A stretch of DNA of 64,000 bases, taken from positions 62,001 through 126,000 of the forward strand of contig JAICIO010000002.1 of assembly GCA_025924315.1 (NCBI GenBank), in the 5' to 3' direction. Numbering within the stretch: the stretch's first letter is position 1; each line of letters begins with the position of its first letter. Made by a program: the position numbers and the translations under genes. Shown here piece by piece: positions 9,014 through 63,820 of this stretch. This DNA comes from Phycisphaerae bacterium. GTDB lineage: Bacteria > Planctomycetota > Phycisphaerae > Tepidisphaerales > Tepidisphaeraceae. The notes beneath the pieces were generated by a model that did no database searches, had not been told where the DNA came from, and was given only the letters and a program-made list of their open reading frames with translations.

Positions 9014-9086
9014 GTCGTCGTGAGCGCAGCGAAGGATCTGGCGTCTTACGGAAACATGCCAGATCCTTCGCGTTGCTCAGGATGAC
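9014..9086. repeat. Family B palindromic repeat (variant)
   Basis: Inverted repeat with arms around GCGAAGGATCTGG and CCAGATCCTTCGC, ending in CTCAGGATGAC. It lies between the two bactofilin genes and is a diverged copy of the elements at 36911, 50498 and 63742. Confidence 0.75.
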
Positions 9087-29522: not shown

Positions 29523-31450
29523 ATGCCGCGCTGCGCGTGGATGGTTTTCGTCGTTGCCCTTGGTGTCAACTTGAGCATTCGAGCGTCGGTGCGGATCGGG
29601 AACTTTTACTACAACGCGCCCAACGGCATCGCGTTCATCAAGGACGACGCTGCCGCATTCGTGATCGACCCGGGCGGATCGTACAACGCGGGCATCGTCG
29701 CGCCGGACGATTCATATCACCAGGTTTTTCTCTCGCAGGGCGACAATTATCTCATCGATTTCCAATGGGCACGCATCGGTGACGGCGTTGTCGCGCGACT
29801 TGAATCGCAGCGAGCAGAGAAACTCACGTTCAAACTCGATAAGAACTGGCCGGATTTTTCCAGCAAATACACGGGCGCACCCGATGGCGTGACCGGCATC
29901 GCCAAGACTGCTTCTGGCGATGTCGGATGGAAGCTGCAAGCCAAGCCGGCGCCGGAATCATCGAATGCGACGTCGATCACATTCGCACTCGCCGGTCCCG
30001 GAAAGCCGACGTATTTCGTGGCCGGTCTGGGGGATCTTCAGCCGATGGATCGCGTCGAGGCGCTTCTGTCCGACGCTCGGAAAGGTACGAGAAGCTGCGC
30101 CCACGGGCTGAGGGCCCCTCGGGCGACATCATCGGCGCGATCACCAACAACCTGAACAACTCCCGCGTTTACAGCAATAACAACCACCTCGCCGCCATCA
30201 CAGTCTCGCGGACCTTCGGCGTGAATCATCCAAACACCACGCCCTACTTCTGCTGGGACAGTTTCTTCAACGCATTGATGGCGTCGATCGACAACCCTGA
30301 ATCCGCGAAGGAAACCGTTCGTGGAATTCTTTCGGGGCAGAGCAAAGAGGGCCTGGTCCCGAACTTCACGCACTGGGCGTTCGATGGCGGCGGAACGAGC
30401 ACCGATCGCTCGCAACCGCCCGTCGGGTCGATGTGCATCTGGAAGATGCTGCAGCGCCATCCCGATCCCGATTTCCTCCGCGAGGTGTATCCGAAGCTCG
30501 TGCTCTGGCACGCGTGGTGGCTGAAGGATCGCAATCCGAAACACGATGGATTGCTGTGCTGGGGCACGAACGTCGACAAGATGGACGGGCCGCTGGGTTC
30601 GCTCCAAGGCGCGCTGTGGGAAACCGGCTGGGATGACACGCCGCATTTCCGCGACGTGCCGGGGGTGAAGATGGTCGGCCATACGATGAACCTGTACGCC
30701 GTCGATCTCTGTTCGATGTGGGCGATGGACGCGCACTATCTCGCGCTCATGGCCGACGCACTCGGCCGGAAAGACGACGCCGAGAAATTCCGACGCGACG
30801 AAAAGGAGATGAACGAGCGGATCAACAAAACGCTCTGGAACGACGAGCTCGGCATTTATTGCAGCCGCTTCTGGGACAACGAAGACGGCTCGCCGGGCAA
30901 ATTTCTCACGCGCATCACGCCGATGAATTTCTATCCGCTGATCTGTGGCGCCGCCTCGCCCGATCAGGCCAAGCGCGTGCTTGCCATCATGACCGACCCA
31001 AACCAATTCTGGGGCGAATGGATTCTGCCAACGGTTTCACGGAAAGATCCGCTTTACTTCGAACAGCGTTATTGGCACGGCACGATCTGGGGACCGGTGA
31101 ACTATCTTGTCTTCCAAGGCGTCAAGCGGTACGCAGCGCCGGAGGTTCAGGCCGAGTTTGCGCAGAAGAGCGTGCACCTCTTCATGAATAACTGGCTCGG
31201 CACCGGACAATGCGGCGAGAATTTTCTCAGTCTCAACGGTCGCGTCGGCGGAAATCCGAATTACACCTGGGGCGCGCTGATGTGCCTCATCGGCGTCGAG
31301 TCGGTGATCGACATCGACGACAACGGCCAGCCGCATCCCGGCCCGGGATATAACGAGCCGGTGACCATCGAAAATCTGCCGATCAACGGCAAGCCCGCGC
31401 GAGTCACGCTGAACTACGGCAAGGCGATGGCTACGATCGACCACCACTGA
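29523..31450 (+). pseudogene. Exported GH63-type glycosidase, frameshifted
   Basis: From the ATG at 29523 (AAGGAATTGTCGC upstream) the frame encodes a signal peptide (MPRCAWMVFVVALGVNLSIR) and an N-terminal beta domain (FYYNAPNGIAFIKDDAA onward). Near 30080 it leaves that frame; the reading resumes one base shifted (…DARK then RYEKLRPRAEGP) and continues to 31450. The second part is a complete (alpha/alpha)6 catalytic domain (YFCWDSFFNALM, then WDDTPHFRDVPG and HGTIWGPVNYL), typical of GH63 alpha-glucosidases or mannosylglycerate hydrolases. No slippery heptamer is visible, so a one-base deletion or an assembly error is more likely than programmed frameshifting. If active, it would hydrolyse glucose- or mannose-capped glycosides outside the cytoplasm. 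Confidence 0.7.
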
Positions 31451-33318: not shown

Positions 33319-33768
33319 CTACACTTGAATCAGCCCGAGCCCGGAGTCGGCATCGAACTTGCGTTGCAGGTGCTTCGGTGAGTCCGTAAGGATGACCTCC
33401 AGGGTGGGACGCACATGCGCCTCCATAAGGTGTCCGCCGCGCGTTCTGCAATCGCGCGTGCCGAGCACCACATGAGCGTGCACCTTCCTTTTCCCGTGAT
33501 CGTCCAGAGAAATATCGCCCGCGAGCGTGAGCACCTCCATCTGTTCGCGCAGGGGAAACTTCTGATATTCGCGGGTGGACCAGTCAAAGTACGCGAGCAC
33601 AACATCGCTGAACGCGCCGATCGCGGTGAACTGCGAGCCGGCGAGCTCATGCTCGTTTGCGACATCGTTCAAGCCCGAGATGACTTCGTCACCGGATTCG
33701 AAAATCACCGCGAAGGTGCGCTGGCCGTGCGCCTCGTTGAGGAGTTTGGATTGCATGTCAGGCTCCAT
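33319..33768 (-). CDS. PPC/DUF296-domain protein
   Basis: This 149-residue protein matches the PPC/DUF296 domain found in prokaryotic small proteins and plant AT-hook factors. Signature stretches are FAVIFESGDEVISGLNDVAN, HAHVVLGTRDCRTRGGHLME and RPTLEVILTDSP. A conserved His in HAHVVLG is typical of the metal- or ligand-binding members. It overlaps the C-terminus of the FAD/Fe-S oxidoreductase gene by 11 bases, so they are coupled. A regulatory role for the oxidoreductase is possible but not shown. Confidence 0.85.
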   Translation of the reverse strand: MEPDMQSKLLNEAHGQRTFAVIFESGDEVISGLNDVANEHELAGSQFTAIGAFSDVVLAYFDWSTREYQKFPLREQMEVLTLAGDISLDDHGKRKVHAHVVLGTRDCRTRGGHLMEAHVRPTLEVILTDSPKHLQRKFDADSGLGLIQV

Positions 33769-36700
33769 GTTGTGAATCGCGATGTTTGAGAAGCGCGTAC
33801 AGGCCGAGGCCGAGAATGCCTCCGGCCGCGGCGAGAGCGCCGGCGCGCACGGCGGCGCGTCGAAACTCGCGTGATTGCTTCGCGACGAGCGCCGCTTCCG
33901 GTCGATGCCAGGGCGCCTGCGAGTATTTCGCGAGCTGAATCGCCTCCGCCAGATGCAGCGCGTGGCGATCGGTCTCCTGCTGAATCTGTTCGCGGCAGCT
34001 GAAACCGTCGGCGATGATCATCGTCTCGTCATCGGCTTCTCGGACTTTTGGCAGGAGCGCGCGCTCGCCGCAGGCGATCGACACGTCATAGTGATCGCCC
34101 TTCTCGTAGCCGAACGCACCGGCCATCCCGCAACAACCGGAATCGAGCAGTTCATAATCCGCGTGCATCCGCTTGAGCGCCGCCTCCTCGGCGCCGGGAC
34201 CCATGATCGCGTGATGGTGGCAATGCATCTGAACCATGGCCTTGTTTGCCAGCTTCGGCACTTCATAGTGCGGCGCTTTTTTCTCGAGGAACTCGCTCAG
34301 CAGAAACGTCTGCTGCTGCAGTCGGCGGGCGTTCATGTCGTTGGGGAAAAGATTCGTGAGCTCATCGCGGAAGACGGCGCCGCAGCTGGGTTCGAGCATG
34401 ACGAACGGCACGCCCGCTTCGATTTCGCGAGACATCTCACTGAGGATTTGCAAAAGCCACCGCTGCGCCATGCCGAGGAAGCCGTAGTCATACAGCGGCC
34501 GCCCGCAACACATGTCGCGCTTCGGAACCACCACACGAAAGCCCGCGTCCTCGAGCACTTCGACTGCGGCGATCGCCACATGCGGTGTGAAGTTGTTGTT
34601 AAACGTGTCCGGCCAAAGCACGACGGGATCGCCGGCCGGATTTCGCGGCTGGTGTGACGCGAACCAACTCTTAAACGTCTGCGGCGCAAAGGCCGGCACC
34701 GTTCGCTGCGGGGCAACGCCGCCGAGGAACTTGAAGACGTCGCGAATGATTGGTGTTTGGGTGATTGCATTCGCGACCATCGGCGCCAAACTCGCCAGCC
34801 GCGCCCAATAGTGAATCCAACCAAACGCGTACGCATGCCGCGGACGGAGACGCTTCTCGTAATAGTGCGAGAGGAACTCGGACTTGTAGGTCGCGAGATC
34901 CACGTGCACCGGGCAATCGCCTTTGCACCCTTTGCACGAGAGGCACAGGTCGAGCGATTCCTTCACCGATTCGCTCTTCCATCCGTCGTGCACCGCTTCG
35001 CCCTGCAGCATCTCGAAGAGCATGTGCGCGCGGCCGCGCGTGCTGTGCTTCTCTTCGCGCGTCACCATGTAGCTGGGGCACATCGTGCCGCCCTCTTCAC
35101 GGCGGCATTTGCCTACGCCGACGCAGCGCTCCGTCGCGCGGCGGAAGCTATTTTGATCGCCGGTGTAATGGAAGTATGTCGCGGGCTCCGGTGGATCGTA
35201 ATCGGGACCGTAGCGCAGGTTCTCGTCGATCTTGTAGGGATGAACCACCTTGTGCGGATTCATTTTGTTGGTCGGATCCCAGATCGCTTTGAACTCTTCG
35301 AACGCTTTGATGAGTTCCGGCCCGAACATTTTCGGAAGCATCTCGGCGCGCGATTGGCCATCACCATGTTCGCCCGAAAGTGATCCCTTGTAGCTCACGA
35401 CCAGATCGGATGCTTCCTCAATGAACCGGCGGAACTTCGCCACGCCATCCGCGGTTTTCAGGCCGAAGTTCAAGCGCGTGTGGATGCAACCGTCGCCGAA
35501 ATGTCCGTAAAGACATCCGACGTAATTAAACTTATCGAGGAGCTTCTTGAAGTCGCGCAGATACGGGCCGACGTCTTTGGGTGCGACTGCGGCGTCTTCC
35601 CAGCCTTCCCAATTCTCTTCCTCGCCAGGAATGTGCGCGGTGGCGCCGAGGCCGGCCTCGCGAACTTCCCACACTTGTTTCTCCTCCGCGGGGTCGTCGA
35701 ACAACTTCATATCGGGCGCATTCTGTTTCTTCTTCAGCTCATCCATCAACTTCCGCGCCTTGTCGTCCGCTTCTCCGCGCGTTTCCCCGCCGAACTCGAT
35801 CATCAGATAGCCTTTGCCTTTGGGAAACAGCTTGAGGTGATTGAGCTGAAGATGTTTCTTCTGAAGATCGACGATGAACTTGTAATCGAGCGCTTCAAGT
35901 CCCTGCGGCTTGTGCCCGAGAACTTCCATCACGTGATCGCCCGCGGAGAACACGTCCGGATATCCAAGCACCAGGAGATTTCGATAAGGCGGCCAGTCCA
36001 CGAGATTCGTGACCGCCTCCAGAATCGTGACGCACGTTCCTTCGCTGCCGACGAGCGCGCGCCCGACGTGAAATCCCTCTTCGGGCAAGAGCGCGTCCAA
36101 GTTGTACCCCGACACGCGGCGCGGAATCCGCGGGAAGCGCTCGCGAATGAGCGAAGCGTATTTGTCCCGCAGCGCCTTAAGCTTGCTGTAGATTTCGCCA
36201 CGTCGTCCGCCGGCGCGGATGATCGATTCGAGCTCCTCGTCGCTCGTCTTTCCGACGCGCATGCGCGTGCCGTCGTAGAGCAGGATGTCGAGCTCGTGAA
36301 TGTTGTCGGACGTGCGACCGGCCATTACCGAGTGCACGCCGCACGAATTATTTCCGCACATCCCGCCGAGCGTGCACCAACGATGCGTCGCGGGATCCGG
36401 GCCAAACATGAGGCCATGTTTCTCCGCGGCGCTTCGTAGATCTTGGCACACAACGCCGGGATGCACGCGCGCCAGCTTCCGCTTCGGATCGATCTCGATG
36501 ATGTCGTGGAGATACTTGGTGAAATCCATGACCACCGCGACGTTGCAACATTGCCCCGCGAGGCTGGTCCCACATCCGCGGCTGAGGACGGGTGCGCCGA
36601 ACTGGCGGCATGTCGCCACCGTTTCGATCACATCCTGTTCGCTCTTCGGAATCACGACGCCGATCGGCACCTGGCGGTAATTCGAACCATCCGTCGCATA

Positions 36701-36865
36701 GAGCGCGCGACTGCCGTCATCGAAGCGCACCTCGCCACTGATCCGCCGGCGCAACTCCGACGCGAGATCCTGGGCATCCAGCTCCGGCGCATGCCGGTGA
36801 TGAAAGAACCGCCGCTGGGGTTGCTGTTGAGAAATATTCTTTCGTGCGATCACCGGTAAATGCAT
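33758..36865 (-). CDS. FAD/Fe-S oxidoreductase (GlcD + GlpC fusion type)
   Basis: This 1035-residue fusion has an N-terminal FAD-binding-4 domain (about residues 65-290: LSRGCGTSLAGQCCN, then TLGGMCGNNSCGVHS) and a glycolate/D-lactate-oxidase C domain (about 310-545, with GHFGDGCIHTRL and SGEHGDGQSR). Two 4Fe-4S sites follow (CVGVGKCRREEGGTMCP; CLSCKGCKGDCP). The CCG heterodisulfide-reductase-type repeats are CCGRPLYDYG and GCCGMAGAFG. One membrane helix ends the chain. Family members oxidise D-2-hydroxyacids such as D-lactate, glycolate or D-2-hydroxyglutarate and pass electrons to quinone. It lies upstream of the PPC gene and downstream of the LarA gene, on the same strand. Confidence 0.9.
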   Translation of the reverse strand: MHLPVIARKNISQQQPQRRFFHHRHAPELDAQDLASELRRRISGEVRFDDGSRALYATDGSNYRQVPIGVVIPKSEQDVIETVATCRQFGAPVLSRGCGTSLAGQCCNVAVVMDFTKYLHDIIEIDPKRKLARVHPGVVCQDLRSAAEKHGLMFGPDPATHRWCTLGGMCGNNSCGVHSVMAGRTSDNIHELDILLYDGTRMRVGKTSDEELESIIRAGGRRGEIYSKLKALRDKYASLIRERFPRIPRRVSGYNLDALLPEEGFHVGRALVGSEGTCVTILEAVTNLVDWPPYRNLLVLGYPDVFSAGDHVMEVLGHKPQGLEALDYKFIVDLQKKHLQLNHLKLFPKGKGYLMIEFGGETRGEADDKARKLMDELKKKQNAPDMKLFDDPAEEKQVWEVREAGLGATAHIPGEEENWEGWEDAAVAPKDVGPYLRDFKKLLDKFNYVGCLYGHFGDGCIHTRLNFGLKTADGVAKFRRFIEEASDLVVSYKGSLSGEHGDGQSRAEMLPKMFGPELIKAFEEFKAIWDPTNKMNPHKVVHPYKIDENLRYGPDYDPPEPATYFHYTGDQNSFRRATERCVGVGKCRREEGGTMCPSYMVTREEKHSTRGRAHMLFEMLQGEAVHDGWKSESVKESLDLCLSCKGCKGDCPVHVDLATYKSEFLSHYYEKRLRPRHAYAFGWIHYWARLASLAPMVANAITQTPIIRDVFKFLGGVAPQRTVPAFAPQTFKSWFASHQPRNPAGDPVVLWPDTFNNNFTPHVAIAAVEVLEDAGFRVVVPKRDMCCGRPLYDYGFLGMAQRWLLQILSEMSREIEAGVPFVMLEPSCGAVFRDELTNLFPNDMNARRLQQQTFLLSEFLEKKAPHYEVPKLANKAMVQMHCHHHAIMGPGAEEAALKRMHADYELLDSGCCGMAGAFGYEKGDHYDVSIACGERALLPKVREADDETMIIADGFSCREQIQQETDRHALHLAEAIQLAKYSQAPWHRPEAALVAKQSREFRRAAVRAGALAAAGGILGLGLYALLKHRDSQHGA

Positions 36866-36910
36866 AACTGGTGCCTTCCTTGCTTCGTCACGCGCAACGT
36901 TCCCGAACTG

Positions 36911-36988
36911 TCATCCTGAGCGAAGCGAAGGATCTCGATGTCGAGCACGTGTTGCGATCCCGAGATCCTTCGCTTCGCTCAGGATGAC
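36911..36988. repeat. Family B palindromic repeat (copy 2)
   Basis: GTCATCCTGAGCGAAGCGAA pairs with TTCGCTTCGCTCAGGATGAC; the inner ends are GGATCTCGATGTCGAGC and CCCGAGATCC. It lies between the FAD/Fe-S and LarA genes. Confidence 0.9.
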
Positions 36989-37086
36989 ACTCAAGAGCGC
37001 TCATTGAATGGATCCGAAACGTCCGATTGCGTCATTTCCAACTCCGAAACAGGCCCGGCCGCTTCAGCGGCAGGGAATTCACTTAA

Positions 37087-38409
37087 TCAATTCGTCTTAT
37101 CCGCAATCCGATCGCTCGCTTCGTCATCGACCACCGGCAGGATGTGTCCGCCAAATCGCAACACCGCGATCGACGCATCCTTGCCTTGTTTTTCCAACGC
37201 CATCTTCACGCCTTCGTTCGCATCGCGCGCGTAGCGAAAGCCGATCTTCTTCGCCTCATCCGGCTTCACGCCTGGCGACACCATGATGCAGTCGGTCTTG
37301 TCCACGATCTGGCACACGTCCGCGAGAATGGCGGCGCCGACGAGGTCATCGACTTTGCCGTGTTGCACCATCTCGACGATCTGCGCGTGCGGCTTGTAGC
37401 CGATCTCCAGAAGGTTCTTGTGATTCGACGCGACGCCTTCGGGATTGGGGCTCACGAGGATGAGCGATCCGCCGTCCTTCACCGCCATTGTGCCGGCATA
37501 TGGACCTTTCGCTGATTGCCAGAAATCCCGATCGGCGGAGTGCGAATCGATCAGCACGATGTCCGCGCGCGTCGGCATGTGCGCCGCGTATACTTCGCGC
37601 GAACACTTGCACCCTTCGCGATGCGCTTTGACGACGTCGCCGGTGAAGCATCCGACGATCGTGTGATTTTTGTCCACGCCATACACAACGTTGACGATGT
37701 ACTTCAGCCCCGCCATCTCCGCGGCCTCTTCCATGCGGAGACGCATCGGATTCTCTGGAATGCCCATGACGGTTTCGGACATGTGCATCGACGCTTCCCA
37801 CTGATTGCGATCCATGATCTCCGGCCCCGCGACGCCGGGGAACGCGATCTTCGCGCCGCCGGATAATCCCTTCACGCGATGCGGGACAATCGAGCCGACG
37901 CCGACGACAAAATCAAATTGCGTCAGCAACTTGTTCGCGGTGACAGGCGTGCCATCGCGCGTGGTGCCGAAATGATGAAGCGATGATTTGTCTTTGTAGT
38001 GATGCTCGTGAACGCGGTATTTGCCGTAGAGCGGGCCGAGTTTCTTTTTGACCTCATCCGGCTTCATCGGGCGGTGCGTGCCGGGCGACTGCAACAGCTC
38101 GATGTTCTTGTCATCGATTCCCGCCGCGTGCAACTCGTCCATGACGTGCGGAAGAATTCTCGCCGTCGGCGTTTCGCGCGTTCCGTCATCGATGAGCAAA
38201 AGGACGCGTTTGGCCGACTGCGCCGCGGCGCGCAGTCGCGGCGCACCGATGGGATTGGCAAATCCTTTTTCGAGCACCTCCTTTTCGTTCACACCTTGTG
38301 GCGTATGCGGAGAAAAGACACCCATGAGATTCCGCTTGGGCAGGTCGACGGGCGCGATCTTCTCGTATCCGGGATACGGAAAGTCGATTCGGACGGTTGT
38401 TTCGCTCAT
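37087..38409 (-). CDS. LarA-family nickel-pincer 2-hydroxyacid racemase/epimerase homologue
   Basis: This 440-residue protein belongs to the LarA (DUF2088) family, which uses the nickel-pincer nucleotide to racemise or epimerise 2-hydroxyacids. Visible motifs: DDGTRETP (74-81), GTHRP with H112, PHRVKGLSGGAK with H177 and K187, the lysine position that carries the cofactor. In the region after SGGAK where another metal His lies in L. plantarum LarA, this protein reads FPGVAGPEIMDRNQW. This may mark a different LarA homologue class, which by family precedent include lactate, malate, phenyllactate, hydroxyglutarate and gluconate epimerases. It is followed on the same strand by an FAD/Fe-S dehydrogenase, and LarB/LarE lie 10 kb away, suggesting 2-hydroxyacid metabolism. 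Confidence 0.85.
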   Translation of the reverse strand: MSETTVRIDFPYPGYEKIAPVDLPKRNLMGVFSPHTPQGVNEKEVLEKGFANPIGAPRLRAAAQSAKRVLLLIDDGTRETPTARILPHVMDELHAAGIDDKNIELLQSPGTHRPMKPDEVKKKLGPLYGKYRVHEHHYKDKSSLHHFGTTRDGTPVTANKLLTQFDFVVGVGSIVPHRVKGLSGGAKIAFPGVAGPEIMDRNQWEASMHMSETVMGIPENPMRLRMEEAAEMAGLKYIVNVVYGVDKNHTIVGCFTGDVVKAHREGCKCSREVYAAHMPTRADIVLIDSHSADRDFWQSAKGPYAGTMAVKDGGSLILVSPNPEGVASNHKNLLEIGYKPHAQIVEMVQHGKVDDLVGAAILADVCQIVDKTDCIMVSPGVKPDEAKKIGFRYARDANEGVKMALEKQGKDASIAVLRFGGHILPVVDDEASDRIADKTN

Positions 38410-38443
38410 TGAGACGAAACTGTGCTGCAGCGCCCGTTCCCGG

Positions 38444-38466
38444 GAACCAAGTAATTTCCTTGGTTC
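38444..38466. promoter_or_regulatory. Operator-like inverted repeat between divergent genes
   Basis: GAACCAAG and CTTGGTTC are perfect 8-base arms separated by seven bases (TAATTTC), centred between the divergent LarA (start 38409) and DUF362 (start 38511) genes. The AATTTCCTT word repeats after it. Position and symmetry fit a dimeric-regulator site; no regulator is identified. Confidence 0.45.
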
Positions 38467-38510
38467 TGTAATTTCCTTTCATGTGGCATGAGTTGTGTCG
38501 AAAGGAAATC

Positions 38511-39950
38511 ATGCCCAACCATTCCCAAGCCACCGTCGCCATTGCGCATACAAAGGAAAAGCACCGATCCCCTGAAAGGGTGACTGCCCTGGTGCGACAG
38601 GCCGTCGATTTGATCGGCGGAATGTCACGCTTCGTGAAACCGGGGCAGACCGTTCTGATCAAGCCAAACCAAACGGTTTACTACTCGGCCGAAGAGGGTT
38701 GCACGACCGATCCGAACGTCGTCGCCGCCGTGATCCGGCTCGCGAAAGAAGCCGGCGCCGCGCGCGTGCAGATCGCGGAATCGAGCGGCGGGTTCTTCAA
38801 CTCCATCGCGTGCATGAAGATCACGGGGATGGCTGCGATGGCCGAACGCGAAGGCGCCGAGCTCGTCGATCTCGGCCGCTGCGAGACGCGCGACACGCGC
38901 ATTCCAAACGGCCGCGTCATTCAGAGCTGCCCGATTTCCGTTCCGCTGCTGGAAGCGGACGTGATCATCGATTGTCCAAAAGCGAAGAACCATCACATCC
39001 AGCCGATCTCCGGCGCGCTGAAGAACTGGGTCGGCGCGGTGAATGCTGAATGGCGGCAACAGAATCACGGCAAGCCCGACATGTTCGGAAAATTCATGGA
39101 CATCATGTCCGTCACGCGCCCGCATCTCTGCATCGCCGACGCGCTGATCGCGGGAGAAGGTGATGGCCCGATTGCGAATCTTCCGCACTGGTGCGGCTGT
39201 GTGCTCGCGACAACTGATCCCGTCGCGATGGATGTCAGCCTCTGCAAACTGCTTCAGCACGATTGGCACGAGCTGAAGTTCATCCCCGAAGCAGTCGCGC
39301 GCGGCATTGGTGTGGCCGAGCCGATTCGGTATGTCGGCAAGCAGATCGAAGAGGTCGCGATCCCCGCATGGCATCCCCATCATGGTTTCGACTATCTGCC
39401 TCTCAACTTCCTCGTCGGCGAAGGTGTCACGCTCGAAGGGACGGTCGGCCACGTGAAAAGCGTCGTCGACAGCATGCTGCGTCGTGGGGAGCTCGAAGAA
39501 GTGATGTGGCTCAAGGGCACGCCGACGATCATGATCGGCGCGATCGAGGACCCCGAATTCGAAACGCATCTGAAAGAAGGCCCGTACGTCGTCTTCGACG
39601 ACGCCGCACTACCGAAATACAAAAACGATCCGCGCGTGCATTTCGTTCCCGGTCATCCTGTGCTGCGCATGGCGATGCCGGAATTGCAGGCCGGCCTCGG
39701 TGTGTCGATTCCCGGAAAGGTTGTTGAGGTCGGCCAGCAGTGGCGCCTGTGGGGAATCCACGCCAGCCATTACGGCACACCCGCGCGCAAAGCGAAAACC
39801 ATCGCGACTCCGATTGCGATCGCGGGCGCGGCACTTGCGGGATTCATCGGCGCCGTCGTCCTCGCCGATCGCGCCGTCGTTCGACATCAAAGACGCAACT
39901 CATTCCCGCGAAATGCGATGAACCGACTGCGCGACATCATTAACACCTGA
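38511..39950 (+). CDS. DUF362 family protein
   Basis: From the ATG at 38511 (GAAAGGAAATC upstream) the product has 479 residues. The DUF362 core (IKPNQTVYYSAEEGCTTDPN, then CPKAKNHHIQPISGALKNWVG) is intact, and the C-terminus has one membrane helix (about residues 433-455) with a basic tail. DUF362 proteins often carry ferredoxin-like domains; none is visible here, and their role is uncertain. It is divergent from the LarA gene across an operator-like palindrome and is followed by GH1, so a shared regulon is plausible. Confidence 0.85.
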   Translation: MPNHSQATVAIAHTKEKHRSPERVTALVRQAVDLIGGMSRFVKPGQTVLIKPNQTVYYSAEEGCTTDPNVVAAVIRLAKEAGAARVQIAESSGGFFNSIACMKITGMAAMAEREGAELVDLGRCETRDTRIPNGRVIQSCPISVPLLEADVIIDCPKAKNHHIQPISGALKNWVGAVNAEWRQQNHGKPDMFGKFMDIMSVTRPHLCIADALIAGEGDGPIANLPHWCGCVLATTDPVAMDVSLCKLLQHDWHELKFIPEAVARGIGVAEPIRYVGKQIEEVAIPAWHPHHGFDYLPLNFLVGEGVTLEGTVGHVKSVVDSMLRRGELEEVMWLKGTPTIMIGAIEDPEFETHLKEGPYVVFDDAALPKYKNDPRVHFVPGHPVLRMAMPELQAGLGVSIPGKVVEVGQQWRLWGIHASHYGTPARKAKTIATPIAIAGAALAGFIGAVVLADRAVVRHQRRNSFPRNAMNRLRDIINT

Positions 39951-39953
39951 CCT

Positions 39954-41366
39954 ATGCAGCATCTACTCAACCACACGGCCAGTACCAGTGCTCGTCACTT
40001 CATCTTCTGCACCGGCATCGAGAACAGCTATCCCGTCATCACGACGAAGGACGGCAAGCGTCTCCGCCGCGATGGAATGAAGCTGAGCGATCATTACCGC
40101 CTCTGGCGGAAAGACTTCAACCTCGTCAAAGAGATGGGCATCACCTTTCTGCGCTACGGCCCGCCCTACTACAAGTGCCACAAAGGCCCGATGCAGTACG
40201 ACTGGTCTTTCGCCGACAAAACCTTCGGACGCCTGAAGGCAATGCGCATCCACCCGATCACAGACCTGTGCCACTTCGGCGTGCCGGACTGGATCGGCGA
40301 TTTCCAGAATCCCGAATGGCCCGAACTCTTCGCGGACTACGCCGGCGCGTTCGCCCAGCGCTTTCCCTGGGTCCGCCACTACACGCCTGTGAACGAAATC
40401 TACGTCTGCGCCCGTTTCAGCGGACAACTCGGCTGGTGGAACGAACAGCTCAAAACCGATCGCGGATTCGTCACCGCGCTCAAGCACATGTGCCGCGCGA
40501 ATCTCCTCGCCGAGGAGGCGATTCTCAAAGTCCAGCCCGATGCCCTGTTCATCCAAAGCGAGTCCTCCGAATACTTCCACGCCGGCACGCCCGAAGCGCA
40601 GGACAAGTCCGAATTCTTCAACCAGAAACGCTTCCTCTCCCTCGACCTGTCCTACGGCCACGACGTCACCGGCAGCATGTACGAATATCTCCTCGACAAC
40701 GGTCTCAGCCGCGAGGAATACCACTGGCTGCTCGATCACGGCAAAGCCCTGCGCCCGCGCTGCATCATGGGCAACGATTACTACATCACCAACGAACACG
40801 AAGTCCGCGACGCCACCGGCGCGTCCGAACCGTCCGGCGAAATCTTCGGCTACTACGTCATCACCAAACAATATTTCGATCGCTATCACCTGCCCGTCAT
40901 GCACACGGAAACCAATCGCAAGAACGATGAGGAAGCCCCGGCCTGGCTGTGGAAGGAATGGTCGAACGTCCTGCGCCTGCGAGCCGACGGCGTGCCGATT
41001 CTCGGCTTCACCTGGTACTCGCTCATCGACCAGATCGATTGGGACACCGCGCTGCGCGAAGACAACCATCGCGTCGATCCGCTCGGCCTGTACGACCTCA
41101 ACCGCAAAATCCGCGACGTCGGTAAAGCCTATCGCGTGCTGATCAACCAGTGGCGCGACGAGCTTCCGATGCAAAGCATGTCGCGCGACATGCGCCTGAC
41201 GAAGCAGGATCTGGAAAGCCACCCGCGAACGCTTCCGACGGAGCAAGAACAAGCGCGTGTCGAAGATAAAAAACGCCAACCCATCCGAATGAAAACGCGA
41301 TCCGGATCGCGAAAACATGCGCAACGGCAAAAGAAGCGGGAGAAACGCAGCTCCAAATCAAAGTAA
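39954..41366 (+). CDS. GH1-like glycoside hydrolase
   Basis: This 470-residue protein has a GH1-type TIM barrel with acid/base TPVNEI (E148) and a nucleophile-position glutamate in MHTETN (E319). The family normally has TFNEP and ITENG there, so it is divergent. The C-terminal 60 residues are Lys/Arg-rich and disordered (for example RKHAQRQKKREKRSSKSK). Likely a beta-glycosidase acting on a glucoside or galactoside; the substrate is unknown. It starts four bases after the DUF362 stop. Confidence 0.8.
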   Translation: MQHLLNHTASTSARHFIFCTGIENSYPVITTKDGKRLRRDGMKLSDHYRLWRKDFNLVKEMGITFLRYGPPYYKCHKGPMQYDWSFADKTFGRLKAMRIHPITDLCHFGVPDWIGDFQNPEWPELFADYAGAFAQRFPWVRHYTPVNEIYVCARFSGQLGWWNEQLKTDRGFVTALKHMCRANLLAEEAILKVQPDALFIQSESSEYFHAGTPEAQDKSEFFNQKRFLSLDLSYGHDVTGSMYEYLLDNGLSREEYHWLLDHGKALRPRCIMGNDYYITNEHEVRDATGASEPSGEIFGYYVITKQYFDRYHLPVMHTETNRKNDEEAPAWLWKEWSNVLRLRADGVPILGFTWYSLIDQIDWDTALREDNHRVDPLGLYDLNRKIRDVGKAYRVLINQWRDELPMQSMSRDMRLTKQDLESHPRTLPTEQEQARVEDKKRQPIRMKTRSGSRKHAQRQKKREKRSSKSK

Positions 41367-42719
41367 TTCTTCCACCGACTGCGGGCGCGAGAGGAAATCG
41401 GTGAGCAGCTCGTATCCCGTTTCGCTCACGACGACCATATCGCAGTGCCGCGCCCCGCCGAGGCCTTCGATGTAGATGCCGGGCTCGACGTTGAACACCA
41501 TCCCGACGTCGAGCACATCCTCCGACACCGGATGAATCCGCGGCCGCGCATTGTGATCGATCGCGACGAATCCCACGCCGTGGCCTGTCGGATGTTTGAA
41601 CTCCTTCTCAAACCCGTGCTCGCGCATGACCTGTCGCGCGGCGGCATCGACCTGTGCGCCGGTTCCGCCGGGACGAATCGCCTTCAGCGCCGCCTCCCGC
41701 GCCGCGAAGATCGCGTCGAAGATTCGCTTCTGCCGATCGTCCGCCTCCCCAACAACAAACGTCCGCGTGATGTCCGTCCAGAACCCATCCACGCACGAAT
41801 TGCAATGCACTAGCACGAGATCCCCATTTTCGATCCTTCGACCGCGCGACCGCTGATACGCCGCAAACGCCTCATACGCATTCGCCCCCGACATACAGTA
41901 CGCGAAGCACATCGCGCGACGCCCCTCCGCCGCTTGTCTTCGACCCTGAGGCTCAGACCCGAAGGGCAGTTTCGCAGATGCAACCGCATCCATCGCCGCT
42001 TGCGGCTTAGCGGGATCGCCGGAAACTGATGCTCCCGCTAAGCCGCAAGCGGCCGAGTGCGCTTCCGTTTCTTCAAAGCAACCCAGCGCCTCCACGAACT
42101 CCGCTTCTAGCGCCGACGCCACCGCACGCTCCGTCATCCCCACCCGAATCCGCGAAACGGTTTGCTCATACGCCCGCGCCGCGATCCGACAACTCAACCG
42201 AAGTCGCTCAATCTCCCCCGTCGTCATCGGCTCGCGCAGCCGCTCCAACATCGCGCTCGCGCCAATCCACTTCCCCTCCGGCGCCGCCTTCACAAGCTCC
42301 CCACCATAAACATTCTGCGCGACGTACGATGCCGGCCGCATCGACGTCGAACCTTCAAACCCAATTCGCCCCGTCGCCACCCCCAACTTCGCCAGCACCA
42401 CCGCCAGCTTCGCGCGCACCACATCCACTGTGGACACAATCTTCTCCATCGACGCCGGCTCAAACGTCACCACCTCATCCGCCCACCCGCCCTTCGCCAG
42501 CTCCTCCTCATCCGACGGCGCGAGCACCACGATCTCGCCCGCGCTCGTCACCACCGCCGCCGATACCCCCGTCACCGGCCAATACCCGCTCGCCAGAAGC
42601 ACGTTCTCCGGCGCAGCACAAACCACCGCGTCCAACCGCTCCGCCCGCAGCACCGAAACCATCCGCCGAACTCGGTCCTCGTCGCGCTTCACAACCCCAG
42701 TGTCACGCGCCCACCCCAA
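41358..42719 (-). CDS. M24 metallopeptidase (Xaa-Pro dipeptidase-like) with in-frame palindrome
   Basis: This 453-residue protein has a creatinase-like N-terminal domain and a C-terminal pita-bread fold. The expected metal ligands are visible: two Asp in SCVDGFWTDITRTF, His in HPTGHGVGF and Glu in FNVEPGIYIEG. Between FVEALG and AMCFAYCMSG about 50 residues are encoded by a palindromic element (SAACGLAG ... PAKPQAAM). Relatives pass almost directly from one to the other, so the insert probably forms a surface loop. It overlaps the convergent GH1 gene by nine bases. Probable N-terminal aminopeptidase or Xaa-Pro dipeptidase; an internal GTG could also be the start. Confidence 0.8.
   Translation of the reverse strand: MGWARDTGVVKRDEDRVRRMVSVLRAERLDAVVCAAPENVLLASGYWPVTGVSAAVVTSAGEIVVLAPSDEEELAKGGWADEVVTFEPASMEKIVSTVDVVRAKLAVVLAKLGVATGRIGFEGSTSMRPASYVAQNVYGGELVKAAPEGKWIGASAMLERLREPMTTGEIERLRLSCRIAARAYEQTVSRIRVGMTERAVASALEAEFVEALGCFEETEAHSAACGLAGASVSGDPAKPQAAMDAVASAKLPFGSEPQGRRQAAEGRRAMCFAYCMSGANAYEAFAAYQRSRGRRIENGDLVLVHCNSCVDGFWTDITRTFVVGEADDRQKRIFDAIFAAREAALKAIRPGGTGAQVDAAARQVMREHGFEKEFKHPTGHGVGFVAIDHNARPRIHPVSEDVLDVGMVFNVEPGIYIEGLGGARHCDMVVVSETGYELLTDFLSRPQSVEELL
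41998..42056. repeat. Palindromic element inside the M24 peptidase gene
   Basis: GCCGCTTGCGGCTTAGCGGG and CCCGCTAAGCCGCAAGCGGC face each other around a 20-base loop. It reads in frame through the peptidase gene. The GCGGC/GGGCTAA words relate it to the copies at 49494 and 52801. Confidence 0.85.
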
Positions 42720-48712: not shown

Positions 48713-49489
48713 ATGCTGGATGAGAAATCTATTCGGTCGCTGCTGTCGCGAGTCGCGCGGGGGGAGGAGTCTGTGGAGGCGGGGGTTCGGGCGCTGAAGT
48801 GTTTGAATGTGGAGGACCTGGGGTTTGCGCGGCTCGATCATCACCGCGAGGTGCGGCGTGGGTGTGCGGAGGTGATTTACTGCGATGGGAAAACGCCTGC
48901 CCAAGTTGCATCGATTGCGGCGAGCGTGGCGGCGCTGCATGCGCGGTTGCTGGGGACGCGGGCGAATGCGGAACATTTTGCGGCGGCGAAGGCGGTTGTG
49001 GCGGATCTGCAATACGATGCGACGTCGCGGTGCATTTGGCTGGAGCGCGATGTCGATCGTCCGCGGCGCAAGGGCGTGATGCTGCTGGCGGCGGGGACGA
49101 GCGATCTGCCGGTGGCGGAGGAGGCGTGGCGCACGCTGGACTTTATGGGCGATCAGGCGGAGCGGATTTACGACATTGGCGTGGCGGGGTTGCATCGGTT
49201 GCTCGAGGTTGTGCCGAAATTGATGAGCGCGAACGTGGTGATCGTGGCCGCGGGGATGGAAGGCGCGCTGCCTTCGGTGGTGGCGGGGTTAATCTCGGCG
49301 CCGGTGATCGCGGTGCCGACTTCGGTGGGATATGGCACGAGCTTCGGCGGATTGACGGCGCTGCTCGGGATGCTCAACACGTGCGCCGCCGGCATCGGGG
49401 TCGTCAACATTGATAATGGTTTCGGCGCGGCGCAATTGGCGTCGATGATCAATCAGCGGATACACGGGGGGCCGGTCGCCCAGAAGTGA
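48713..49489 (+). CDS. larB: LarB, nickel-pincer cofactor carboxylase/hydrolase
   Basis: This 258-residue protein matches LarB, which carboxylates nicotinic acid adenine dinucleotide and hydrolyses the phosphoanhydride bond, the first step to the nickel-pincer nucleotide. The AIR-carboxylase-like C-terminal half has LLAAGTSDLPVAEEAW, IVAAGMEGALPSVVAGLI and VPTSVGYGTSFGG. The N-terminal AFHRE-type helix region is also present (GFARLDHHREVRRGCAEVIY). It is followed by larE after a short repeat, and together they should supply LarA at 37-38 kb. LarC is absent from the window. Confidence 0.9.
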   Translation: MLDEKSIRSLLSRVARGEESVEAGVRALKCLNVEDLGFARLDHHREVRRGCAEVIYCDGKTPAQVASIAASVAALHARLLGTRANAEHFAAAKAVVADLQYDATSRCIWLERDVDRPRRKGVMLLAAGTSDLPVAEEAWRTLDFMGDQAERIYDIGVAGLHRLLEVVPKLMSANVVIVAAGMEGALPSVVAGLISAPVIAVPTSVGYGTSFGGLTALLGMLNTCAAGIGVVNIDNGFGAAQLASMINQRIHGGPVAQK

Positions 49490-49493
49490 ATGG

Positions 49494-49544
49494 GTTAGCC
49501 CCGCCGCTAGCGGCGGGTTACCGGCCGCGAGCGGCCGGGCTAAC
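49494..49544. repeat. Palindrome of GCGGCCGGGCTAA type (family H, copy 1)
   Basis: GTTAGCCCCGCCGCTAGCGG and CCGCGAGCGGCCGGGCTAAC face each other between larB and larE. Its frame would extend larE upstream, but the ribosome site and ATG are after it. Confidence 0.75.
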
Positions 49545-49557
49545 GGTGGAGTGCGAG

Positions 49558-50400
49558 ATGAACGACGTAGTCCAAATGAAGCTCGATGCGCTGGTGAATC
49601 TCCTGGGGGAGATGCAGTCGGTGCTCGTCGCGTATTCTGGTGGTGTGGATAGCGCGCTGGTGATGGCGGCGGCGCATCGCGCGCTGGGCGATCGCGCGCT
49701 GGCGTGCATCGGGCGATCGCCGAGTTATCCGCAACGCGAGTTTCGGGCTGCGGTTGCATTGGCGAAGCAAATCGGCGCGCGGTATCGGGTGATTTCGCCG
49801 CAGGAAGAGCTCGACGATCGCTACAACCGCAACGACGCCGACCGGTGCTATTTCTGCAAGACCGCCCTCTTCGAAAAACTGCGACACATCGCGGCCGGTG
49901 AAGGATGGAACGCGATCGCGGACGGGACGCACTGCGATGACGTTGGCGATCACGTTCACGGAATGCGAGCGGCGCGTGATCGGAAGATTCGTTCGCCGCT
50001 GATCGAACTGAATTTTACGAAGGCGGACGCGCGCGCGTTGGCCCGCGCGCTCCATCTGCCGGTCTGGGATAAACCGGCGATGGCGTGCCTCGCGTCGCGC
50101 GTGCCACATGGAACCGCAATCACCCCGAAGTTACTTCAGCAAGTCGAACGAGCCGAAGACGCACTCGCTGAGCTCGGCTTCCGACAATTTCGCGTGCGAC
50201 ATCACGGCGAGATCGCACGCATCGAACTGGCGAGTGATGAATTCGATCGAATGCAGCAGCATCGTCGTGAAGTCGTCGAAGGTGTTCGCGCGGCGGGGTA
50301 TCGGTTCGTGACGCTGGATTTGCTTGCGTATCACGAAGGAGTCGAGTCGCCTGCCGATTCGTTGGTCCAGCTTCATGTTCCGACTTCGGGGCCGGTGTAG
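49558..50400 (+). CDS. larE: LarE, ATP-dependent sulfur transferase for the nickel-pincer cofactor
   Basis: From the ATG at 49558 the product has 280 residues. LarE adenylates the cofactor carboxylates and inserts sulfur. The PP-loop is SGGVDS (residues 27-32), and C177 in ACLASRVPHG matches the sacrificial cysteine C176 of Lactiplantibacillus LarE. Two further cysteines, C97 and C100 (RCYFC), could form a three-cysteine set of the kind proposed to bind a [4Fe-4S] cluster in some LarE proteins. I prefer 49558 over the GTG at 49486, which lies in larB and crosses a palindrome. Its TAG stop is the first part of a family A repeat. Confidence 0.9.
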   Translation: MNDVVQMKLDALVNLLGEMQSVLVAYSGGVDSALVMAAAHRALGDRALACIGRSPSYPQREFRAAVALAKQIGARYRVISPQEELDDRYNRNDADRCYFCKTALFEKLRHIAAGEGWNAIADGTHCDDVGDHVHGMRAARDRKIRSPLIELNFTKADARALARALHLPVWDKPAMACLASRVPHGTAITPKLLQQVERAEDALAELGFRQFRVRHHGEIARIELASDEFDRMQQHRREVVEGVRAAGYRFVTLDLLAYHEGVESPADSLVQLHVPTSGPV

Positions 50401-50497: not shown

Positions 50498-50576
50498 GTC
50501 ATCCTGAGCGGAGCGAAGGATCTCGGGATCGGGCGTTGCTCTCGAGTTGGAGATCCTTCGCTTCGCTCAGGATGAC
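50498..50576. repeat. Family B palindromic repeat (copy 3)
   Basis: GTCATCCTGAGCGGAGCGAA pairs with TTCGCTTCGCTCAGGATGAC. It lies between the convergent larE and response-regulator genes. Confidence 0.9.
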
Positions 50577-63741: not shown

Positions 63742-63820
63742 GTCATCCTGAGCGAAGCGAAGGATCTCCATATCCAAGCACGTTCTCGATCCCGAGATCC
63801 TTCGCTTCGCTCAGGATGAC
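63742..63820. repeat. Family B palindromic repeat (copy 4)
   Basis: GTCATCCTGAGCGAAGCGAA pairs with TTCGCTTCGCTCAGGATGAC. It lies between the divergent epimerase and enolase-superfamily genes. The epimerase frame can be read upstream through it as EILRFAQDD. Confidence 0.9.

Follow-up and report, generated by a model that had tools for sequence, protein, structure and literature searches.

What does a bacterium do with a lactate racemase homologue in which a ligand of the nickel has been replaced, and do the genes around it form a plain lactate utilization set or something else? The question is raised by a stretch of 64,000 nucleotides from a Phycisphaerae bacterium of the family Tepidisphaeraceae (assembly GCA_025924315.1, contig JAICIO010000002.1, positions 62,001 to 126,000; hereafter the window), where a gene for a homologue of LarA, the nickel-pincer racemase, lies beside a gene for a flavin adenine dinucleotide (FAD)/Fe-S dehydrogenase. 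The window is part of contig 2 of an assembly of 6.57 Mb (262 contigs, 96.8% complete). Judging from the sequences compared, its LarA belongs to a real, conserved subfamily with a changed metal ligand, undescribed as far as the searched literature shows and named LarA-Q here. The locus is best read as a respiratory 2-hydroxyacid oxidation module in which the LarA belongs to this new subfamily and has altered metal binding, a reading to which we give a probability of about 0.55.

The protein belongs to the LarA superfamily (DUF2088), with 158.4 bits for Lar_N and 36.8 bits for LarA_C, both above the Pfam curated cut-offs, and it was the sole LarA homologue found in its own genome when used as the query. 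Its predicted structure (mean pLDDT 90.6) matches the two-domain fold of the LarA proteins of Isosphaera pallida (9EIA/9EID) and Lactiplantibacillus plantarum (5HUQ) over more than 400 residues, with Z scores of 46–48 (the best, 48, to 9eid) and 25–28% identity. It shares with both the active-site equivalents: D75, H112, H177 and K301 map to the catalytic D72, H108, H174 and K298 of LarA, R78 and Q298 to the carboxylate residues R75 and Q295, and K187 to the cofactor-tethering K184. Relatives were sought in 392 Planctomycetota and 395 Gemmatimonadota genomes, in the order of the window and in one scan of GTDB contigs. Five were found, with 59–77% identity, so that LarA-Q comprises six proteins, two from Tepidisphaeraceae (the window and a sister genome, L091, 58% complete) and four from Gemmatimonadota. 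They form a single clade (SH-aLRT 100), and all seven residues named above are invariant among them.

The residue that differs is a nickel ligand, His200 of L. plantarum LarA, which is Gln203 in the window protein, within the motif FPGVAGPEIMDRNQW. Gln occupies this position in all six LarA-Q proteins and His in all 49 other LarA homologues of the comparison set, three of which have a known structure. Since 16 residues separate the cofactor lysine from this position in the window LarA and in the reference LarA alike, without gaps, misalignment is unlikely. In I. pallida LarA, the equivalent His199 completes the square plane of the nickel, and its departure from the metal has been connected with the possible passage of hydride to nickel rather than to the ring carbon (PMC11851776). 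Cofactor-binding residues including H200 were found in every LarA group analysed (PMC7583248). A one-histidine branch of LarA (LarA Bw and LarA Sp; 9Q3J, 9Q3K) likewise alters an otherwise conserved active-site His, but it is the reverse of LarA-Q, as it loses the acid/base His174 and retains the nickel-binding His (PMC12611868). No LarA with a His-to-Gln change and none lacking the nickel insertase LarC was found in the literature searched, most subscription papers and supplementary tables being outside its reach. A nearby His in the sequence SMHMS was considered as a substitute ligand and rejected, because it varies (SMQMS, SLRMS). Other subfamily-specific residues are H134, H290, H422, C254 and E205. 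As Gln203 is conserved in six proteins, any nickel would be bound differently, and LarA-Q may either hold nickel in another way or go without it.

Concerning the substrate, the window LarA falls far short of every NCBIfam LarA equivalog cut-off. Both its best NCBIfam match (269.7 bits) and its best PDB sequence match are to the malate racemase Mar2 (LarAH6; NF052593), but it lies far under the cut-off of 500 bits and lacks the H/Q plus K signature of malate racemases, and Mar2 has the His ligand. Substrate-class patterns are available for LarA positions 175, 176, 358 and 359, the HHR pattern being loose there (F/Y at 358), and the lactate racemase pattern is F, F, W, E/Q (PMC11770544). The corresponding residues of the window protein are R178, V179, A360 and I361, and R, V, A and I recur in all six LarA-Q proteins; this combination fits none of the published activity classes (LAR, MAR, HGR, GntE, HHR) and differs from L/M/W/Q or F/F/W/T of the I. 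pallida and L. plantarum enzymes. On specificity signature and tree, a plain lactate racemase was rejected. In addition, R178 and K180 are next to the second catalytic histidine, His177; neither occurs at those positions in the other 49 proteins, where the residues are mostly uncharged. This hints at a charged or polar substrate side chain, and a 2-hydroxy acid bearing one would be, tentatively, the likeliest substrate class; an aldonate is only a possibility. The sequence-only reading of this locus had described the region after the cofactor lysine as unlike that of lactate racemase, which agrees with the separate clade and the scores below all NCBIfam LarA cut-offs. The odd motif that it pointed to is real, although the loss of the nickel-ligand His there was not recognized.

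The same reading had named LarA, FAD/Fe-S, PPC/DUF296, DUF362 and GH1 genes as one set. Open reading frames and Pfam, where every domain exceeds its curated cut-off, confirm their places and families, with GH1 just past the range given, but larB, larE and a conserved M24 gene had been missed (Table 1). A map of the related larA loci made by tblastn separates constant from incidental neighbours: larA, dehydrogenase, GH1 and M24 genes recur together across two phyla, while PPC and DUF362 had no match in the mapped related loci, being seen in the window only, and were rejected as members of the module. The dehydrogenase gene is beside or near larA in five of the six loci (59–65% identical in the four Gemmatimonadota), a pyruvate-oxidase-like gene is found in four, GH1 and M24 genes in three, and a quinone module resembling Qrc or alternative complex III (ACIII) in three. 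Dehydrogenase, larA, GH1 and M24 genes lie inside 9 kb in the window, and GH1, M24 and larB-larE-larA all lie inside 10 kb in L091. Three Gemmatimonadota (G061, G063, G463) share the order glycogen-debranching-like hydrolase, SDR, thiamine diphosphate (ThDP) enzyme, larA, FAD/Fe-S dehydrogenase, multihaem cytochrome (QrcA-like), fused QrcB/QrcC-like protein and NrfD protein, their ThDP enzyme scoring 1086 bits with the pyruvate-oxidase-type model NF006129 (cut-off 724). In G599 the order is ThDP enzyme, dehydrogenase, M24, larA, GH1. The neighbourhood comparison that had been proposed bears out part of the grouping between Planctomycetota and Gemmatimonadota. It had been granted that no special module would be implied if the protein grouped with plain lactate racemases and its neighbours were not conserved together elsewhere; because LarA-Q is its own clade and its neighbours are conserved across two phyla, this is not the case. 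Such linkage, at the LarA identities given above, suggests partial horizontal transfer of a functional set. Several LarA groups are known to have COG0277/COG0247 oxidoreductases encoded nearby (PMC7583248).

Table 1. Features of the LarA-Q locus in the window (positions within the 64,000 nucleotides).
Feature	Position	Strand	Basis and remarks
PPC/DUF296 protein	33319..33768	-	Pfam PCC; 11-bp overlap with the stop of the dehydrogenase gene
FAD/4Fe-4S 2-hydroxyacid dehydrogenase fusion (GlcD-like + GlpC/CCG), 1035 aa	33758..36865	-	Pfam, NCBIfam, motifs
REP-like hairpin in the larA–dehydrogenase intergenic region	36910..36988		Palindrome copy
LarA homologue, new subfamily (LarA-Q), 440 aa	37087..38409	-	Pfam Lar_N/LarA_C, alignments, residue mapping, fold
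Gln203 codon (DRNQW), nickel-ligand His position	37801..37803	-	Residue numbering and bases
DUF362 protein, hydrophobic C-terminal tail, divergent from larA	38481..39950	+	Pfam DUF362
Divergent GH1-like protein	39954..41366	+	Pfam Glyco_hydro_1; counterparts of 60% identity in L091 and L086
M24 (creatinase/prolidase-like) protein	41358..42719	-	Pfam; counterparts of 39–41% identity close to larA in L091 and L086
LarB (pyridinium-3,5-biscarboxylate mononucleotide synthase)	48713..49489	+	NF033503, 282 bits, cut-off 175
LarE sulfur insertase	49486..50400	+	TIGR00268, 292 bits, cut-off 150; 4-bp overlap with larB

The dehydrogenase contains FAD_binding_4, FAD-oxidase_C, Fer4 and CCG domains, all above the curated cut-offs, with the motifs HFGDGCIH, GEHG and CLSCKGCKGDCP and two CCG motifs. 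Its best NCBIfam match is the YdiJ-type D-2-hydroxyglutarate dehydrogenase, an FAD/Fe-S fusion of similar length, but the score of 478.9 bits is far below the cut-off of 1350, and thus the substrate of YdiJ cannot be transferred to it. The GH1-like protein exceeds its Pfam cut-off (45.8 versus 22.6 bits) with the profile matched in part, and its VNEI and HTETN motifs hold the candidate catalytic glutamates. The release of the substrate from a glycoside by this protein is only a possibility, and the GH1 and M24 proteins might process a conjugated form of it. The Qrc-like genes that adjoin the dehydrogenase in the three Gemmatimonadota score below the cut-offs for Qrc menaquinone reductase, and the Qrc-like module is absent from the window.

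Concerning the cofactor, LarE has cysteines in RCYFC and ACLAS, and larB-larE lies about 10 kb from larA in the window and immediately upstream of it in L091. Because larB-larE-larA is a tight operon there, LarA-Q is tied to the product of LarB and LarE. LarC, sought with two models (TIGR00299 and PF01969), was found neither in the genome of the window nor in the less complete sister genome, with assembly gaps possible in both. It is also missing from LarB-positive members of the family without LarA-Q (G001, G010, G016). Another family member, G004, has a larB-larE-larC operon, and larA takes the place of larC in L091; in G022, larC is apart from larBE. All four Gemmatimonadota with LarA-Q have LarC, but this is uninformative, since LarC occurs in 190 of the 395 genomes of that phylum, with or without LarA. 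LarC independence was accordingly lowered as a main claim, in view of the LarB-positive relatives, of G022 and of the LarC of these Gemmatimonadota.

Some observations on related proteins and on the surroundings of the locus were made in passing. Only 17 of the 395 Gemmatimonadota genomes have LarA (window LarA as query, E 1e-20), a number that, set against that of LarC, suggests that LarC or its product is used independently of LarA in this phylum. In two divergent LarA homologues (L138 7002-8324 and L139 7885-9192), FANHNKNY replaces the SGGxK motif; they come from genomes of the same family as the window that have LarB and in which no LarC was found. A different homologue that keeps the His (37% identity) adjoins, within L087 6909-11346 (G116), a PBP_like_2 binding protein and a TOBE-domain ABC ATPase of the tungstate/molybdate-uptake type. 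In the window, the DUF362 protein and the dehydrogenase have hydrophobic Gly/Ala-rich ends that look like C-terminal membrane anchors. An MGH1-like (GH63/trehalase-type) glycoside hydrolase is encoded at 29927-31450, some 2 kb past the PPC gene, and GDE/MGH1-type hydrolases weakly similar to it accompany larA in Gemmatimonadota. The window also has four copies (9014-9086, 36910-36988, 50498-50576 and 63742-63820) of the REP-like palindrome GTCATCCTGAGCGAAGCGAAGGATC, each paired with its complement, where none is expected by chance; the third lies directly after larE. A divergent promoter had also been supposed between larA and the DUF362 gene, but a sigma-70 consensus scan of the approximately 70 bp between the divergent starts gave no promoter-like site.

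The stereoinversion catalysed by LarA and the oxidations carried out by FAD/Fe-S 2-hydroxyacid dehydrogenases are general knowledge, and the simplest pathway combines them. LarA-Q would interconvert the C2 stereoisomers of a 2-hydroxy acid, with His112 and His177 as the acid/base pair and with a pyridinium-dithioacid mononucleotide, made via LarB and LarE, tethered at Lys187. The metal would be held through the weaker amide ligand of the conserved Gln or by other residues. The FAD/Fe-S protein would then oxidize the D isomer, yielding the 2-oxo acid, and pass the electrons to a quinone/cytochrome chain, in which the Qrc/ACIII-like complex encoded beside the dehydrogenase would take part in Gemmatimonadota; where present, the pyruvate-oxidase-like enzyme may decarboxylate the 2-oxo acid. 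The earlier idea of a racemase feeding a D-specific dehydrogenase fits this scheme. Gene content, linkage, residue changes and fold are read from the sequence; reaction, direction and metal state are what we infer from them, the racemase, dehydrogenase and electron-transfer steps from family and linkage. Several points weigh against the respiratory module. The FAD/Fe-S protein reaches the cut-off of no NCBIfam dehydrogenase equivalog, the 19.5 kb stretch of L091 contains no FAD/Fe-S gene and the neighbourhood varies by lineage, at least three of the six LarA-Q genomes are, by title, metagenome-assembled genomes, and genomic context often fails to predict LarA substrates (PMC7583248).

Other interpretations can be placed beside it. 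LarA-Q could be an ordinary nickel racemase that uses Gln as the fourth ligand with little functional change, within an ordinary lactate-type utilization set. It would explain why the remaining catalytic and cofactor residues are all preserved and why LarB and LarE, and in Gemmatimonadota LarC, are present, and the pyruvate-oxidase-like neighbour fits a route from lactate through pyruvate to acetate. This seems doubtful all the same, because the four specificity residues are unlike those of lactate racemases (PMC11770544) and all the other homologues compared have the nickel-ligand His. If the activity had been lost altogether, the protein could bind the cofactor, its precursor or another nucleotide as a carrier, cofactor chaperone or one-way hydride enzyme in a stress/redox island, as the missing metal ligand and the mixed neighbours (GH1, M24, SDR, ThDP enzyme) would allow; the invariance of the seven active-site residues, which amounts to a full acid/base and substrate-carboxylate site, makes this very improbable.

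The product of LarB and LarE is chemically near the nicotinamide ring, and LarA-Q might thus do without LarC-inserted nickel, either with this product as a tethered hydride carrier resembling nicotinamide adenine dinucleotide or with another metal bound. The two Tepidisphaeraceae with LarA-Q, which has lost the nickel ligand, yielded no LarC, the operons of G004 and L091 differ in having larC or larA after larB-larE, and mass spectrometry has detected LarA proteins carrying cofactor adducts that lack nickel (PMC11796402). On balance, a nickel-free enzyme is unlikely, given LarC in the four Gemmatimonadota (for what its general frequency there leaves of the argument), the three relatives that lack both LarA-Q and LarC, the incompleteness of the sister genome and a larC that can sit away from larBE, as in G022. 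A link between the loss of the ligand and that of larC in Tepidisphaeraceae, which is part of the same proposal, is likewise improbable.

With the respiratory 2-hydroxyacid module retained as the preferred reading, the LarA-Q clade constitutes a natural experiment on the role of nickel and of its fourth ligand. It makes the question of hydride transfer to nickel testable, and the conserved neighbours supply a concrete pathway.

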